Made by a program: the position numbers and the translations under genes
Notes under the pieces: model-generated
The model's input: the letters and a program-made list of their open reading frames with translations, nothing else
Told to the model about the DNA's origin: nothing
The model's database searches: none
In this document: piece after piece, positions 3,512 to 25,395 of the stretch
Position numbering within the stretch: position 1 is the first letter of the stretch
Layout of the letters: every line of letters begins with the position of its first letter
Origin: Candidatus Omnitrophota bacterium
GTDB lineage: Bacteria; Omnitrophota; Omnitrophia; Omnitrophales; Aquincolibacteriaceae
DNA length: 46,212 bases
NCBI GenBank assembly: GCA_030698625.1
Contig: JAUYMS010000009.1
Coordinates: 1 to 46,212, forward strand
Direction: 5' to 3'

Positions 3512-4381
3512 TTATCGAAGGTATTCGAACAGCATTGTAAGTTTATCTTTAAGATCTCCTCGGGAAACGACCATGTCGATCATCCCATGCTCCATTAAAA
3601 ATTCGGATGTCTGAAAGTCCGGGGGAAGCTTCTGCCTTATTGTCTGTTCTATGACCCGTGGCCCGGCGAATCCTATTAGGGCGCGCGGTTCTGCAATCAT
3701 GATATCTCCTAGAGATGCGAAACTGGCCATGACTCCGCCCATCGTAGGGTTTGTAAGCACGGAAATATACGGCTGTTTGGAGCGCCTGTACCGAGCCAAA
3801 GCAAGCGACGTCTTGGCCATCTGCATGAGGCTTAGCGCGCCTTCATACATCCGCGCTCCGCCGCCGGATCCCGATACGATGATTAGCGGAATCTTCTTTT
3901 CACCCGCGTGTTCAATTAGACGCGTCATCTTCTCACCTACGACAGACCCCATCGACCCCATAATAAACCGGGAATCCGTAACCCCAAGAGCAACGGAAAT
4001 TCCTGACATTTGTCCCTCACCCGTAATACATGCTTCCTGGAGACCGGTCCGCTTTCTGTCCTGTTTTAACTTCTCCAGGTACGATTTGGTTCCGGAAAAC
4101 TTTAAGGGATCAAGGGTTTTAAGATCCGCGTTAAACTCCACAAACGTCTTCGGATCCAACAGCTGAGCTATTCGTTCGGGCGCCCCTACCACAAAGTGGT
4201 ATTCGCATTTGTGACAAACAGAGAGGTTGTCACGCAAAGCCTTATTAAAGATAACGCTTTCACAACTGGGGCATTTTGTCCACAGGCCTGCGGGAACACT
4301 CTTCTTACGGATCCCGCTAGTTACGGACCCCGTAGGAGTGTTATTAGAATTGAGTTTCGAGTCTTGCTCAGCGATGGCCAT
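3512..4381 (-). CDS. accD: Acetyl-CoA carboxylase carboxyltransferase subunit beta
   Basis: AccD is the zinc-binding half of the carboxyltransferase that moves CO2 from carboxybiotin to acetyl-CoA, the first committed step of fatty-acid synthesis. The 289-residue protein has the four-cysteine ribbon C37-x2-C40 ... C56-x2-C59. The crotonase-type core follows, with the oxyanion-region motif SGGGARMYEG and the TNPTMGG motif. The length is normal for the family. It is the first gene of an operon that continues into an ABC ATPase and two GGDEF genes, an unusual partnership. accB and accC lie about 17 kb away and accA is not in the window. Expression starts at a perfect-consensus promoter and passes a terminator-like hairpin 14 nt before the ATG. 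Confidence 0.97.
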   Translation of the reverse strand: MAIAEQDSKLNSNNTPTGSVTSGIRKKSVPAGLWTKCPSCESVIFNKALRDNLSVCHKCEYHFVVGAPERIAQLLDPKTFVEFNADLKTLDPLKFSGTKSYLEKLKQDRKRTGLQEACITGEGQMSGISVALGVTDSRFIMGSMGSVVGEKMTRLIEHAGEKKIPLIIVSGSGGGARMYEGALSLMQMAKTSLALARYRRSKQPYISVLTNPTMGGVMASFASLGDIMIAEPRALIGFAGPRVIEQTIRQKLPPDFQTSEFLMEHGMIDMVVSRGDLKDKLTMLFEYLR

Positions 4382-4395
4382 GATCCCCGTCTAAT

Positions 4396-4444
4396 AAAAA
4401 AGGGCCACGTCGGTCGCACCAAAAAGAACGTACCTCGTGGCGCC
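4396..4444 (-). terminator. Terminator-like hairpin in the accD leader (candidate attenuator)
   Basis: On the minus strand the arm GGCGCCACG (4436-4444) pairs with CGTGGCCC (4402-4409) to give 8 bp with one bulged C. The loop is about 26 nt, and the second arm is followed at once by six T (4396-4401). It lies downstream of the accD promoter and only 14 nt before the accD ATG. The neighbouring gene on the other side, rpoN, is divergent, so there is no upstream transcript for it to end except the accD leader itself. The plus-strand reading has no U-run. Attenuation is therefore the simplest reading; the signal sensed is unknown. Confidence 0.55.
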
Positions 4445-4469
4445 ATAATAATTTGCTGCAATTCATTGC

Positions 4470-4498
4470 ATTATAAAAAAATGTAAAAATACTGTCAA
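4470..4498 (-). promoter_or_regulatory. Consensus sigma-70 promoter for the accD operon
   Basis: On the minus strand TTGACA (4493-4498) and TATAAT (4470-4475) both match the housekeeping consensus perfectly with a 17-nt spacer. Transcription would start near 4463, giving a leader of about 80 nt before accD that contains the terminator-like hairpin. Confidence 0.85.
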
Positions 4499-4562
4499 TC
4501 TGTTTCTAAATCCCGATGTGGCCTCCCTTTACAACAATTCTGAATCATGCTATCGTTTGCCT

Positions 4563-6008
4563 ATGGACGCACGACTCATCCAAGGCCAGTCTCAAAGGCT
4601 CATCTTATCCCCACAAATAAGGCAGTATTTGCGCTTATTGCAGATGCCGATCACCGAATTGGCTCAAGCCGTCGACGCTGAGCTCACGGAAAATCCCCTT
4701 CTCGAGGAGAAGCCGGAGCCACGAAACGACGAGCTCACAGGTACTGAAGCATCTTCTGAGGCCCCTGAGCGCCCTGGGGGCGCTGAAGAACTTCGCTTGG
4801 GAGAATCATTCGGCGACACGGACCAGTTGGATCCGAGTCTGTGGCAGGGCTCCGAATACGGGGACACGGTTGGCTCCGACACTCGCGAGTTGCAGCGGCA
4901 ACAAGACTTTCGACAATCTCTTTTAACCAAACCTGAAGCCCTATCAGACTACCTTCTGTGGCAGGTTCGCTTCCTTGACTTAGAAGATGCAGATGCCAAG
5001 ATAGCCACTGAAATCGTGGGCAACATTGACGAACAAGGCTACCTTCGATCTACCGTTGAAGAAATTGTCAAAGCATGCGCCGCAAGCAAAGAGGCCGTCG
5101 AAAAAGTCCTCAAGATCGTACAGGGTTTAGAACCTCCAGGAATCGCAGCGCGCGACCTACCGGAGGCCCTGCTCTTGCAACTTGAAAGAATGTCGCCTCC
5201 GCCGACAATCGCCATTGATATCGTCAGAGACCATCTTCCCTTGCTCGAAAAACGAAACTGGAGCCAACTGACAAAGGTCCTTGCGGTCAATATCGCTGAG
5301 GTGCGGAAAGCAGCCGAACTGATTATTCATCTCGAGCCACGGCCGGGCCGCAGCTTCTACGTTGAGCAGCCGATTGCGATCACTCCGGACGCCGCCATCA
5401 CCATCAGCGGTCAGGACCAAGAAAAGATTAAAGTGCATATCCATAACGAGAAGATACCGGAACTTAGAATCAATAGTTACTATCGCCGCTTGCTTAAAGA
5501 AAAAGGCACCGACGCAAAGACTCGTGAATTCCTCAAGGAAAAACTTCAGGCCGCGTTGAATTTCATGAAAGCCATTAGCCAGCGAAGGTCCACATTGCGG
5601 GACATCACCGAAGAGATTGTCAAAGCGCAGCCTGATTTTTTTGACAAGGGTTTCTCACATTTAAAACCCCTCCGGCTTAAAGATATTGCCGACAACTTAG
5701 GCATCCACGAATCAACTGTAAGCCGTGCCCTTCAAGGCAAATACGTCACCACCCCTCAGGGGACCATTTCGTACAAAAGCCTATTTTCAACCAAGCTTCA
5801 AACAGTGAGCGGTGATACAGAATCTCAGAAGAGTATCATGGAGAAGATCAGGAAAGTCCTCGATAAGGAAGATCCTGAGAAGCCTTTGAGCGATCAGGAT
5901 CTCGTGAAGCTCTTGAAGGGCGATGGGATTATCGTCGCTCGCCGCACCGTCGCCAAATACCGCGACTTGCTAAAGATCCTACCTTCGCATCTTCGACGCA
6001 AAAGATAG
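4563..6008 (+). CDS. rpoN: RNA polymerase sigma-54 factor
   Basis: RpoN directs polymerase to -24/-12 promoters and needs an AAA+ activator to melt DNA. The 481-residue product has the region I signature (SQRLILSPQI, then LLQMP). An acidic linker follows (~40-110), then the core-binding domain and the helix-turn-helix region (SRALQGKYV). The RpoN box ARRTVAKYR stands near residues 459-467. The ATG at 4563 is preferred over an in-frame GTG at 4518 because family members begin just before this region-I motif; neither start has a clear ribosome-binding site. Two features downstream fit its use: a receiver-less NtrC-type activator gene and a -24/-12 promoter match. It is transcribed divergently from accD. 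Confidence 0.96.
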   Translation: MDARLIQGQSQRLILSPQIRQYLRLLQMPITELAQAVDAELTENPLLEEKPEPRNDELTGTEASSEAPERPGGAEELRLGESFGDTDQLDPSLWQGSEYGDTVGSDTRELQRQQDFRQSLLTKPEALSDYLLWQVRFLDLEDADAKIATEIVGNIDEQGYLRSTVEEIVKACAASKEAVEKVLKIVQGLEPPGIAARDLPEALLLQLERMSPPPTIAIDIVRDHLPLLEKRNWSQLTKVLAVNIAEVRKAAELIIHLEPRPGRSFYVEQPIAITPDAAITISGQDQEKIKVHIHNEKIPELRINSYYRRLLKEKGTDAKTREFLKEKLQAALNFMKAISQRRSTLRDITEEIVKAQPDFFDKGFSHLKPLRLKDIADNLGIHESTVSRALQGKYVTTPQGTISYKSLFSTKLQTVSGDTESQKSIMEKIRKVLDKEDPEKPLSDQDLVKLLKGDGIIVARRTVAKYRDLLKILPSHLRRKR

Positions 6009-21514: not shown

Positions 21515-22894
21515 TCAACCCACCTTTTCTTCGTCGATATTGTCTTTTTTACTCGGTGCCAAGACCGTATCAACAAAACTTGTACTTACCGCCCCCTGTC
21601 TAAATCTGGGACGGTTCAAAATCTTTTCATGTAGCGAAATGGTCGTCTTGATCGGGCCCACTCGGCACTCTTTGAGAGCTCTGAGCATAATAGAAATTGT
21701 CTCCTGCCGGTTTTTCCCATGAGCAATGATTTTCCCGATCATTGAGTCGTAGTAGGGCGGAATACAATAACCGGCATACACATGGCTGTCGACGCGCACG
21801 TTGGGTCCTCCCGGCATAATCCATGTCTCCACTTTTCCCGGGCAGGGCATGAATTGGTTGTCCGGATCCTCTGCATTGATACGGCACTCCATAGCGTGCC
21901 CTCGGAACTGAACTTTGTCCTGCGTCACACTAAGCTTTTCACCCGCGGCAATCGCAATCTGTTCCTTAACAATATCTATCCCGGTAACAAGTTCCGTGAC
22001 CGGGTGCTCAACCTGAAGCCGGGTGTTCATCTCCATAAAATAAAAGTTCTGATCCGCGTCGACTAAAAATTCAACAGTTCCCGCATTCTCATACTTGAAT
22101 GCCTTCGCTGCTTTAATCGCGGCCTCGCCGATCTTACGGCGCAGCTTCAGATTAAAGCCCGGCGCTGGACACTCCTCGATGAGCTTTTGATGCCGCCGCT
22201 GAATGGAACAATCCCGTTCACCCATATGGATAATGTTACCGCGGCTATCCGCCATAATCTGTACTTCCACATGACGCGGTTCTTTAATAAGCTTCTCTAT
22301 GTAGACTTCCCGATTTCCAAACGAGGCCTCACCTTCCGCCTGCGCTGTAAGGAATGCACTGATCAATTTACCGTCATTGTGAGCCTCACGGATCCCTTTT
22401 CCTCCTCCGCCCGCCACTGCCTTGCACATTATCGGGTAGCCGATCTTCTTCGCCATACGCAGGGCTTCTTCCTGATCCTTGACCGTGCCCTTGCTTCCGG
22501 GGATTATGGGAACTCCGGCTTTTCGCATCTCCTGCCTTGCCAAAGACTTGTTGCCCGCCATCCGTATGCTTTCAGGTTTGGGGCCTATGAATCGAATCTG
22601 ACAAGATTCGCAGATCTCCGCAAAATGCGCGTTCTCCGCCAGAAAACCGTAACCGGGATGAATGGCCTCGACATCCGCTATTTCTGCCGCCGAAATCAAA
22701 GCCGGAATATTCAGGTAACTTTCCGAGGACGGCGCCTCCCCTATGCAAATAGCTTCGTCGGCGTACTTCACATGAAGAGAATCTCGGTCTGCCTTTGAAA
22801 AAACAGCAACCGTCTTAATACCCAATTCATGGCAGGCGCGTATGATACGCACAGCAACCTCACCGCGATTTGCCACTAGAATTTTATGAAACAT
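21515..22894 (-). CDS. accC: Acetyl-CoA carboxylase biotin carboxylase subunit
   Basis: AccC carboxylates the biotin of AccB with bicarbonate and ATP. The 459-residue ATP-grasp protein has the N-terminal [17 protein letters not shown], the glycine-rich [12 protein letters not shown] loop, [25 protein letters not shown] and the metal-binding [16 protein letters not shown]. Length and motifs are normal, with a charged tail of about 15 residues. It lies 18 bp after accB in the long operon starting at DUF1844; accD is in a separate operon. Confidence 0.97.
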
Positions 22895-22912: not shown

Positions 22913-23374
22913 CTACTTGATCTTGAAAAGCGGTTGATCGAATTCTACGGGCTGGCCATTGTTAACAAGAACTTCGACAATGGTCCCGTTACTTTCTGAT
23001 TTGATCTCATTCATCAGCTTCATTGCCTCAATGATGCACAACACGTCGCCTACCTTGATGGATTGCCCCACGGTTACGTAAGGCGGCTGATCCGGCGCCG
23101 GCGTTGTGTAAAAGGTACCGACCATCGGTGATCGCACTTTGGTGCCTCCGTCTGCAGGGTTTTCGGCTGCCGGCCCCACAGCTTTGCTCGCCATTTCATA
23201 ACTCGCGGACATCGGAATAACCACAGGCTGCGACCCGGCCATTTGCTCTGCGACCATCTTCCCGCCGCTGCCTTTCCGCAACTTGATTTTTGTTCCGTCC
23301 TTTTCGATCTCGACTTCCGTCAGATCGTGCTCCTCCATGAGCCCCAACAATTCCTTAATCTCTCTTATATTCAT
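22913..23374 (-). CDS. accB: Biotin carboxyl carrier protein of acetyl-CoA carboxylase
   Basis: This 153-residue carrier has an N-terminal helical region (MNIREIKELLGLMEEHDLTE), a Pro/Ala-rich linker (~50-80) and a C-terminal biotinyl domain (~82-153). The biotin-accepting lysine lies in EAMKLMNEI, with SPMVGTFY at the domain start. It precedes accC by 18 bp, the normal accBC arrangement. Confidence 0.96.
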   Translation of the reverse strand: MNIREIKELLGLMEEHDLTEVEIEKDGTKIKLRKGSGGKMVAEQMAGSQPVVIPMSASYEMASKAVGPAAENPADGGTKVRSPMVGTFYTTPAPDQPPYVTVGQSIKVGDVLCIIEAMKLMNEIKSESNGTIVEVLVNNGQPVEFDQPLFKIK

Positions 23375-24895: not shown

Positions 24896-25258
24896 TTAGC
24901 TCTTCTGGACGAATTTCATCTGGAGTTCCGGGAGGACAGATTCAAAGAAGGTGTTTTCCTCGGGGCCCGTATTACTGCGCGTCTTTTCCTTTAATTGTAC
25001 CAGGAGGTCTATGACACTACGCGCCTCGTCGATCTCAACTTCCGGCTTCTGAGATTCGGGGTGTGGGATTTCACCCATATGGATCATTGCCTGCATTGCA
25101 AGGGAGTTCAGCAGTGAGAGAAAGGCCTGCGACGACTGAGGCGCACTTCCTGCTGAAGCCGGTTCAGGGCGCACCCGCGCCTTGTCGCCTTCAACCTTTT
25201 CCTTCCAGTTTTGGTCTACCTTCTTCTCAGGAAAATGAATGTCCTTATCCGATTGCAC
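24896..25258 (-). CDS. DUF1844 family protein
   Basis: This 120-residue protein has a charged, likely disordered N-terminus (1-40) and a DUF1844 core (~43-118). The core includes FLSLLNSLAMQAMIHMGEIP, a DEARSVIDLLVQLKEKT helix and the terminal LPELQMKFV. The start is GTG at 25258 with GAGG 8 nt upstream. It is the first gene of the acc/heptose operon, starting only 18 nt after a terminator hairpin. The family has no established function. Confidence 0.88.
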   Translation of the reverse strand: MQSDKDIHFPEKKVDQNWKEKVEGDKARVRPEPASAGSAPQSSQAFLSLLNSLAMQAMIHMGEIPHPESQKPEVEIDEARSVIDLLVQLKEKTRSNTGPEENTFFESVLPELQMKFVQKS

Positions 25259-25276: not shown

Positions 25277-25326
25277 AAAAAAAAGAGGCTCCTGGCCTAG
25301 TGGGGATCAGGTTGGCCAGGAACCTC
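25277..25326 (-). terminator. Rho-independent terminator directly before DUF1844 (candidate attenuator)
   Basis: On the minus strand GAGGTTCCTGGCC (25314-25326) pairs with GGCCAGGAGCCTC (25285-25297). The stem has 8 + 4 bp around one mismatch and a 16-nt loop, and is followed by eight T (25277-25284). It lies between a near-consensus promoter (25367-25395) and the GTG of DUF1844, 18 nt from the latter. It may also end transcripts from the STAS-PilZ gene upstream. A transcript starting at the intervening promoter has to pass it, which suggests attenuation. Confidence 0.85.
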
Positions 25327-25366
25327 TGAAGGTGAGTTGAAACTTGCAAGTTTCCAAGTGAGGACA

Positions 25367-25395
25367 CTTATATCAGGAGCGCGATGACATGTCAA
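25367..25395 (-). promoter_or_regulatory. Sigma-70 promoter of the DUF1844-acc-heptose operon
   Basis: On the minus strand TTGACA (25390-25395, perfect) and TATAAG (25367-25372, 5/6) are separated by 17 nt. The start would fall near 25360, giving a leader of about 100 nt. That leader contains GAAACTTGCAAGTTTC, an exact 16-bp palindrome at 25338-25353 able to form a short hairpin, followed by the terminator. Confidence 0.75.

Follow-up and report, generated by a model that had tools for sequence, protein, structure and literature searches.

The accD gene of a Candidatus Omnitrophota bacterium was found to be preceded by a predicted intrinsic terminator placed between a consensus promoter and the start codon. 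We give a probability of about one half to the reading in which this leader is a transcription attenuator with its read-through altered by a trans-acting factor, probably a protein. The stretch of DNA analysed, referred to here as the window, covers 46 kb (46,212 nucleotides) of a metagenome-assembled genome. The phylum Omnitrophota is known almost solely from metagenomes, and acetyl-CoA carboxylase carries out the first committed step of fatty acid synthesis. The long conservation of a built-in stop signal before accD in a group of uncultured Omnitrophota suggests an unstudied control of this pathway.

In the proposed mechanism, RNA polymerase would begin at the near-perfect accD promoter and make about 20 nt, whereupon the hairpin and the U-tract would release most complexes with an RNA of roughly 50-70 nt. 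Only the complexes that read through would make accD, and a trans-acting factor, probably a protein, would recognise the nascent stem and alter the extent of read-through. Both termination in the cell and regulated read-through at accD are inferred.

Organization of the accD leader

The accD promoter, TTGACA-17-TATAAT, was read directly on the minus strand at 4470..4498, with TTGACA at 4498-4493 and TATAAT at 4475-4470. A single match to TTGACA-N16-18-TATAAT occurs in the 46 kb window, against a chance expectation of 0.01, and this match is the accD promoter; the perfect consensus that an earlier sequence-only reading had noticed before the gene is therefore upheld. The start site is placed near 4463 by prediction, as are all start sites in this study, and with this placement the leader length of about 80 nt given in that reading agrees with ours. 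Between the predicted start site and the hairpin lies a 5' leader segment of about 20 nt (4445..4463, minus strand) that is not conserved in sequence.

The terminator hairpin, GGcGCCACG...CGTGGCCC, occupies 4402..4444 of the minus strand. In its conserved core CCACG (4440-4436) pairs with CGTGG (4410-4406), and the stem is imperfect because of one bulged C. The hairpin alone folds with -20.7 kcal/mol, is GC-rich and is followed directly on its 3' side by a U6 tract (4396..4401, minus strand, read directly), which together mark it as a predicted intrinsic (Rho-independent) terminator. The U6 tract is separated from the start codon by 14 nt (4382..4395, minus strand) containing a weak ribosome-binding site (GGGG), exactly the distance at which the sequence-only reading had placed a GC-rich hairpin with U6. 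A generic consensus scanner did not list this hairpin, presumably owing to the maximum of 8 nt that it allows for a loop.

The gene itself (3512..4381, minus strand) starts with the ATG at 4381 and encodes the carboxyltransferase beta subunit of 289 aa. Its Carboxyl_trans and Zn_ribbon_ACC domains, the latter with a C-X2-C-X15-C-X2-C zinc ribbon, identify it as a genuine AccD. The neighbouring rpoN (4518..6008, plus strand) contains Sigma54 domains, although the GTG listed as its start may lie too far upstream. Since rpoN is divergent, the terminator in the accD leader belongs to no upstream gene, as had been argued before. The layout is that of an attenuator, where the terminator (4444-4396) lies between the promoter (4498-4470) and accD (4381), with no preceding gene that it could terminate. 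A second promoter would not fit between U6 and the ATG, which are only 14 nt apart, and the window leaves no site 3' of the terminator for an alternative accD promoter.

A second conserved block was observed at 4500-4560 of the window, where TTGTTGTAAAG and ATAGCATG, as read on the accD strand, lie 5' of the accD promoter in many relatives. This block is probably the divergent rpoN promoter region.

Strength of the terminator against background

The terminator fold dominates the accD leader when it is folded. The folding of the whole leader is unremarkable compared with its shuffles (z = -1.4), but a hairpin and T tract of this strength occurred in none of 2000 dinucleotide shuffles of the accD intergenic region. 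A survey of 100 leaders of divergent genes, drawn from a 749 kb sample of the same genome in which the gene calls are simple ORFs, also gave the accD terminator the first rank. The runner-up is probably an ordinary 3' terminator, since a small secreted ORF precedes it. Clean intergenic terminators of -20 kcal/mol or below number four in these 749 kb, namely those of the two acc leaders (accD and accBC) and a further two that are symmetric.

It is scarcely credible, given these figures, that the hairpin arose by chance or is an ordinary terminator with no function at accD. T runs are common in the AT-rich intergenic stretch and the hairpin is absent from some relatives, as such an explanation would have it, but neither the shuffles nor the first rank among divergent-gene leaders fits it, and conservation as captured by the covariance model of the leader (R3, below) is found at accD only.

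Strong intrinsic terminators at gene ends were observed to be very rare in the sampled loci of the window genome (L201-L240 of G000), among which the two acc leaders stand out. From this rarity, most termination in the sampled loci probably proceeds by other means.

Conservation of the accD leader in related genomes

A total of 47 genomes of the order could be searched, and 30 orthologous accD leaders were inspected, the hairpin not being required for inclusion. A consensus-like promoter was found at the same place in 28 of the 30. About fifteen of the leaders share the complete layout of consensus promoter, some 20 nt, hairpin with a CCAC(G)/(C)GTGG core and T5-8. Aligning orthologous leaders had been proposed by the sequence-only reading, and the layout proves to be conserved in about half of them, across two families. 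The succession of promoter, hairpin and T tract occurs at accD in G000 (the window genome), G006, G012, G016, G018, G020, G022-G026, G033, G037, G040 and G045, with a shortened variant in G006 and a degenerate one in G024. The hairpin-bearing leaders belong to genera g1, g7, g8, g13, g17 and g18 of one family and g25 and g29 of a second. In the alignment (A8), the CCACG/CGTGG core and the T tract vary hardly more than the -10 box, in a leader that has otherwise diverged. The description of the hairpin as standing right before the start codon is correct for the window (14 nt). In relatives the distance from the end of the U-tract to the first aligned AccD residue is about 26-95 nt, so that the gap is usually longer there.

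The covariance model R3 finds one site per genome, and accD is the site in all 14 of its 14 matches, including G022 and G024, which were both outside the model-building set. The hairpin pattern likewise occurs once in the window's own genome. In other genomes the CCACG pattern also matches away from accD, several of these matches resembling symmetric terminators or coding matches, and a match in G048 was rejected as an accD leader since it precedes an unrelated gene.

Stem covariation is present but limited. Two of the eight hairpin pairs are changed on both sides and 92.9% of cells are paired (34-59% in slid controls), as counted on sequences chosen for showing the hairpin, after the motif had been seen and with the arms excised by hand. 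As the stem is nearly invariant in sequence, this covariation is weak evidence. The covariation that the sequence-only reading had proposed to look for is thus seen in a quarter of the pairs, the stem being otherwise mostly constant.

About half of the accD orthologues are without the hairpin and have a plain promoter-leader-ATG arrangement, from which it follows that the hairpin is not essential to accD. Hairpin-bearing leaders cluster on the AccD tree, where the trait needs 5 changes compared to 10.4 when labels are shuffled. In G031 (L025), a member of another family, a different hairpin, CCCCGCACCACTACGACGTGCGGGG, followed by T5 was observed at the same position of the accD leader.

The conserved halves of the stem could also be read at the DNA level, as an operator in which a repressor binds the inverted repeat CCACGA...TCGTGG shortly after the promoter. 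The palindromic halves are conserved and the distance from the -10 box to CCACG is nearly constant, being 24-29 nt in most hairpin-bearing relatives, which would suit an operator. However, the two halves are separated by anything from about 8 to 27 nt, a variation that is unexpected for a dimeric DNA-binding protein and makes an operator very unlikely. In addition, a T5-8 tract always follows directly 3' of the 3' half.

Search for switching elements in the accD leader

No competing antiterminator fold was found by constrained folding of 12 accD leaders, the best alternative being 7-17 kcal/mol weaker than the terminator. The alternative antiterminator envisaged by the sequence-only reading therefore finds no counterpart here, and the roughly 20 nt that precede the hairpin are not conserved. 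These nucleotides also leave too little room for an aptamer, and none that is conserved was found upstream of the hairpin. In a scan covering 8 of 13 leaders, no leader ORF with a ribosome-binding site and overlapping the 5' arm was common to the leaders. The window leader does contain one ATG frame, which overlaps the predicted start site; a leader peptide from this frame was rejected because no counterpart was seen in relatives (8 of 13 leaders scanned). Of the attenuation reading, what stands is the promoter-proximal intrinsic terminator that accD transcription from this promoter must pass, and what is not supported is switching by an antiterminator.

Neither acc leader matches an Rfam 15 family at gathering score or credibly by E-value. 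The match of the accD leader to c-di-GMP-II-GAG is a chance match, with 17.9 bits against a gathering score of 40 and an E-value of 0.47.

A riboswitch or a leader-peptide attenuator with mutually exclusive folds is highly improbable in light of these searches. The overall order of promoter, leader, terminator and gene is what such a device would show, and the c-di-GMP-II-GAG match, weak as it is, points the same way. Against it are the position of this match far under the gathering score, the presence of just some 20 unconserved nt 5' of the hairpin with alternative folds weaker by 7-17 kcal/mol, and the lack of a common leader ORF with a ribosome-binding site in the 8 of 13 leaders scanned.

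The main rival to a trans-acting factor is passive dose setting, where a fixed fraction of transcription is stopped, a very strong promoter thereby yields the right low dose of AccD and nothing is sensed. We hold this to be possible, and it accounts for most of the facts: no antiterminator, aptamer or leader ORF is held in common (ORFs in 8 of 13 leaders), and many relatives lack the hairpin, as expected of a dose tuning that is easily exchanged. The exception is the conserved stem sequence. Passive attenuation would require pairing alone and not a set sequence, yet CCACG/CGTGG has been kept across two families while other parts of the leader diverged. The conserved stem sequence, taken with the lack of any common antiterminator, aptamer or leader peptide (peptides in 8 of 13 leaders), leads us to favour a trans-acting factor; no two-fold switch was found in the leader, so that regulation, if present, would come from such a factor.

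The candidate leader RNA of the accBC operon

The sequence-only reading had noticed a second acc operon with the same layout in the window, and this was confirmed, with a promoter at 25395-25367, a hairpin with U8 and then a GTG at 25258. The promoter (25367..25395, minus strand) reads directly as TTGACA-17-TATAAG. The leader RNA that follows, described by models R1/R2, covers about 82 nt (25277..25358, minus strand). It consists of a 5' hairpin, a CUCACC linker, a 13-bp terminator stem with a loop containing AUCCCCAC, and U8, which is represented by a U tract in relatives; CUCACC and AUCCCCAC are both unpaired and conserved. The terminator hairpin folds with -26.9 kcal/mol and together with its U8 occupies 25327-25277. 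The first gene after the RNA is a DUF1844 ORF (24896..25258, minus strand) starting with the GTG at 25258, and accB (BCCP; 22913..23374) and accC (biotin carboxylase; 21515..22894) lie further downstream on the same strand. A co-directional STAS/PilZ-like gene lies 138 nt upstream of the hairpin, and judged by position alone the hairpin could be the ordinary 3' terminator of this gene.

Covariation is extensive in this RNA, as ten of the eighteen pairs are changed on both sides and 97.2% of cells are paired, a level reached by none of 500 shuffles and compared with 32-53% in slid controls. The RNA was found in 36 of 384 genomes of the phylum (E <= 0.001), nearly always once per genome and almost all in this order, and nothing resembling it is present in Rfam 15. 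A broader model adds G013, G031 and G043. A distant R2 match in G261 and a second copy in G032 were rejected as being other hairpins.

Motifs of accB and accC were found about 2-3 kb downstream of the RNA in every locus that reaches far enough, which makes accBC its constant partner. A DUF1844 homologue after the RNA was not found in G004 and G032, where accB/accC are still downstream, and in the more distant relative G050 the order is R1, a Trm112-like ORF (recognised by eye), accB and accC. Degenerate accBC RNAs were observed in G013 (L166, 1927-2011) and G031 (L151, 1409-1485), where the terminator stem is kept while CUCACC and AUCCCCAC are lost. This joint loss looks as if both elements might serve one function. 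A gap of 200-300 nt separates the RNA from the next gene in some genomes, and a free-standing small RNA is a possible alternative to a leader. We regard it as a candidate for a new leader-RNA or small-RNA family.

Comparison with known regulatory systems

Transcription attenuators that depend on a protein are known, among them PyrR at pyr, TRAP at trp and the LicT/SacY-type antiterminators. The accD leader resembles the PyrR, TRAP and LicT types in that an intrinsic terminator stands close to the promoter, ahead of a biosynthetic gene, and its conserved RNA sequence suggests recognition by a factor. It differs from them in being far shorter, in showing no visible antiterminator and no known binding protein, and in its target, accD. 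Cis-regulatory RNAs of similar size exist in Rfam 15, although no family matches either acc leader.

For Escherichia coli, Meades et al. 2010 (as presented in PMC3896788) proposed that the carboxyltransferase binds the accA and accD mRNAs by means of the AccD zinc finger, a proposal that Smith and Cronan 2014 challenged (cited in PMC11602165). As far as these accounts go, the likeness lies in a control of accD after initiation and in the Zn_ribbon_ACC domain, which is also present in the AccD of the window, whereas the E. coli binding is described at the level of translation and on both mRNAs. The Omnitrophota leaders are unlike the E. coli scheme in that a terminator hairpin is present in the accD 5' leader and accA is without such a leader. 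For the accBC operon of E. coli, PMC3896788 describes autoregulation by AccB, which is likewise a control of an acc operon, but it mentions no terminator RNA, whereas the accBC operon studied here is headed by a conserved leader RNA.

Our literature search found neither attenuation at accD or accBC nor RNA regulation in Omnitrophota. As far as checked, both acc leaders are new, while their kind, the transcription attenuator, is known. If our readings are true, the accD attenuator and the accBC leader RNA would form a regulatory layer of acc that is new to the searched literature.

Relation between the two acc leaders

Since the accBC operon is also headed by a conserved terminator RNA, the two half-enzymes of the carboxylase may be tuned by parallel attenuators. 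Among 25 genomes scored for both features, the accD hairpin is present in 11 and absent in 9 of those with an intact accBC RNA, and absent in all 5 of those where this RNA is lost or degenerate. This gives a Fisher p of 0.04, which is not significant once relatedness is considered; the tree offers too few independent pairs for a conclusion on this link. A leader hairpin was not found at accA in 12 genomes, and accA closely follows a gene on the same strand. A further reading, worth stating although we consider it doubtful, is that two unrelated leader attenuators might govern acetyl-CoA carboxylase in the Omnitrophota of this order, both being read by one trans-acting factor responsive to lipid or malonyl-CoA status.

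In the window, the loop CCTGATCCCC of the accBC RNA (about 25300-25315) was observed to be complementary to the ribosome-binding site region GGGGATCATGG of accD (4378-4391, minus strand). The resulting pairing of about 10 bp lies over the ribosome-binding site. Being strong in the window genome G000 only, it does not represent a general mechanism.

The promoter-terminator unit of accD could, finally, be an independent small RNA gene that stands 5' of accD by accident and whose product is the short transcript. The unit is complete as a small transcription unit, and in G007 and G018 a distance of 200-300 nt lies between the accBC RNA and the next gene, which in G007 may have a promoter of its own, as would suit a free-standing RNA. 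However, the short accD RNA is not conserved outside the hairpin and is thus without a seed region, accD would be left without a visible promoter in the window, and the pairing of the accBC loop with accD is clearly above shuffles in G000 only. On balance we judge a small RNA gene to be unlikely and keep to the attenuator with a trans-acting factor as the preferred reading. As in the window (4381 and 25258), accD and the accBC leader share a contig in many relatives (G012, G016, G018, G025 and G005), at a distance of about 12-37 kb, a neighbourhood that has been kept.
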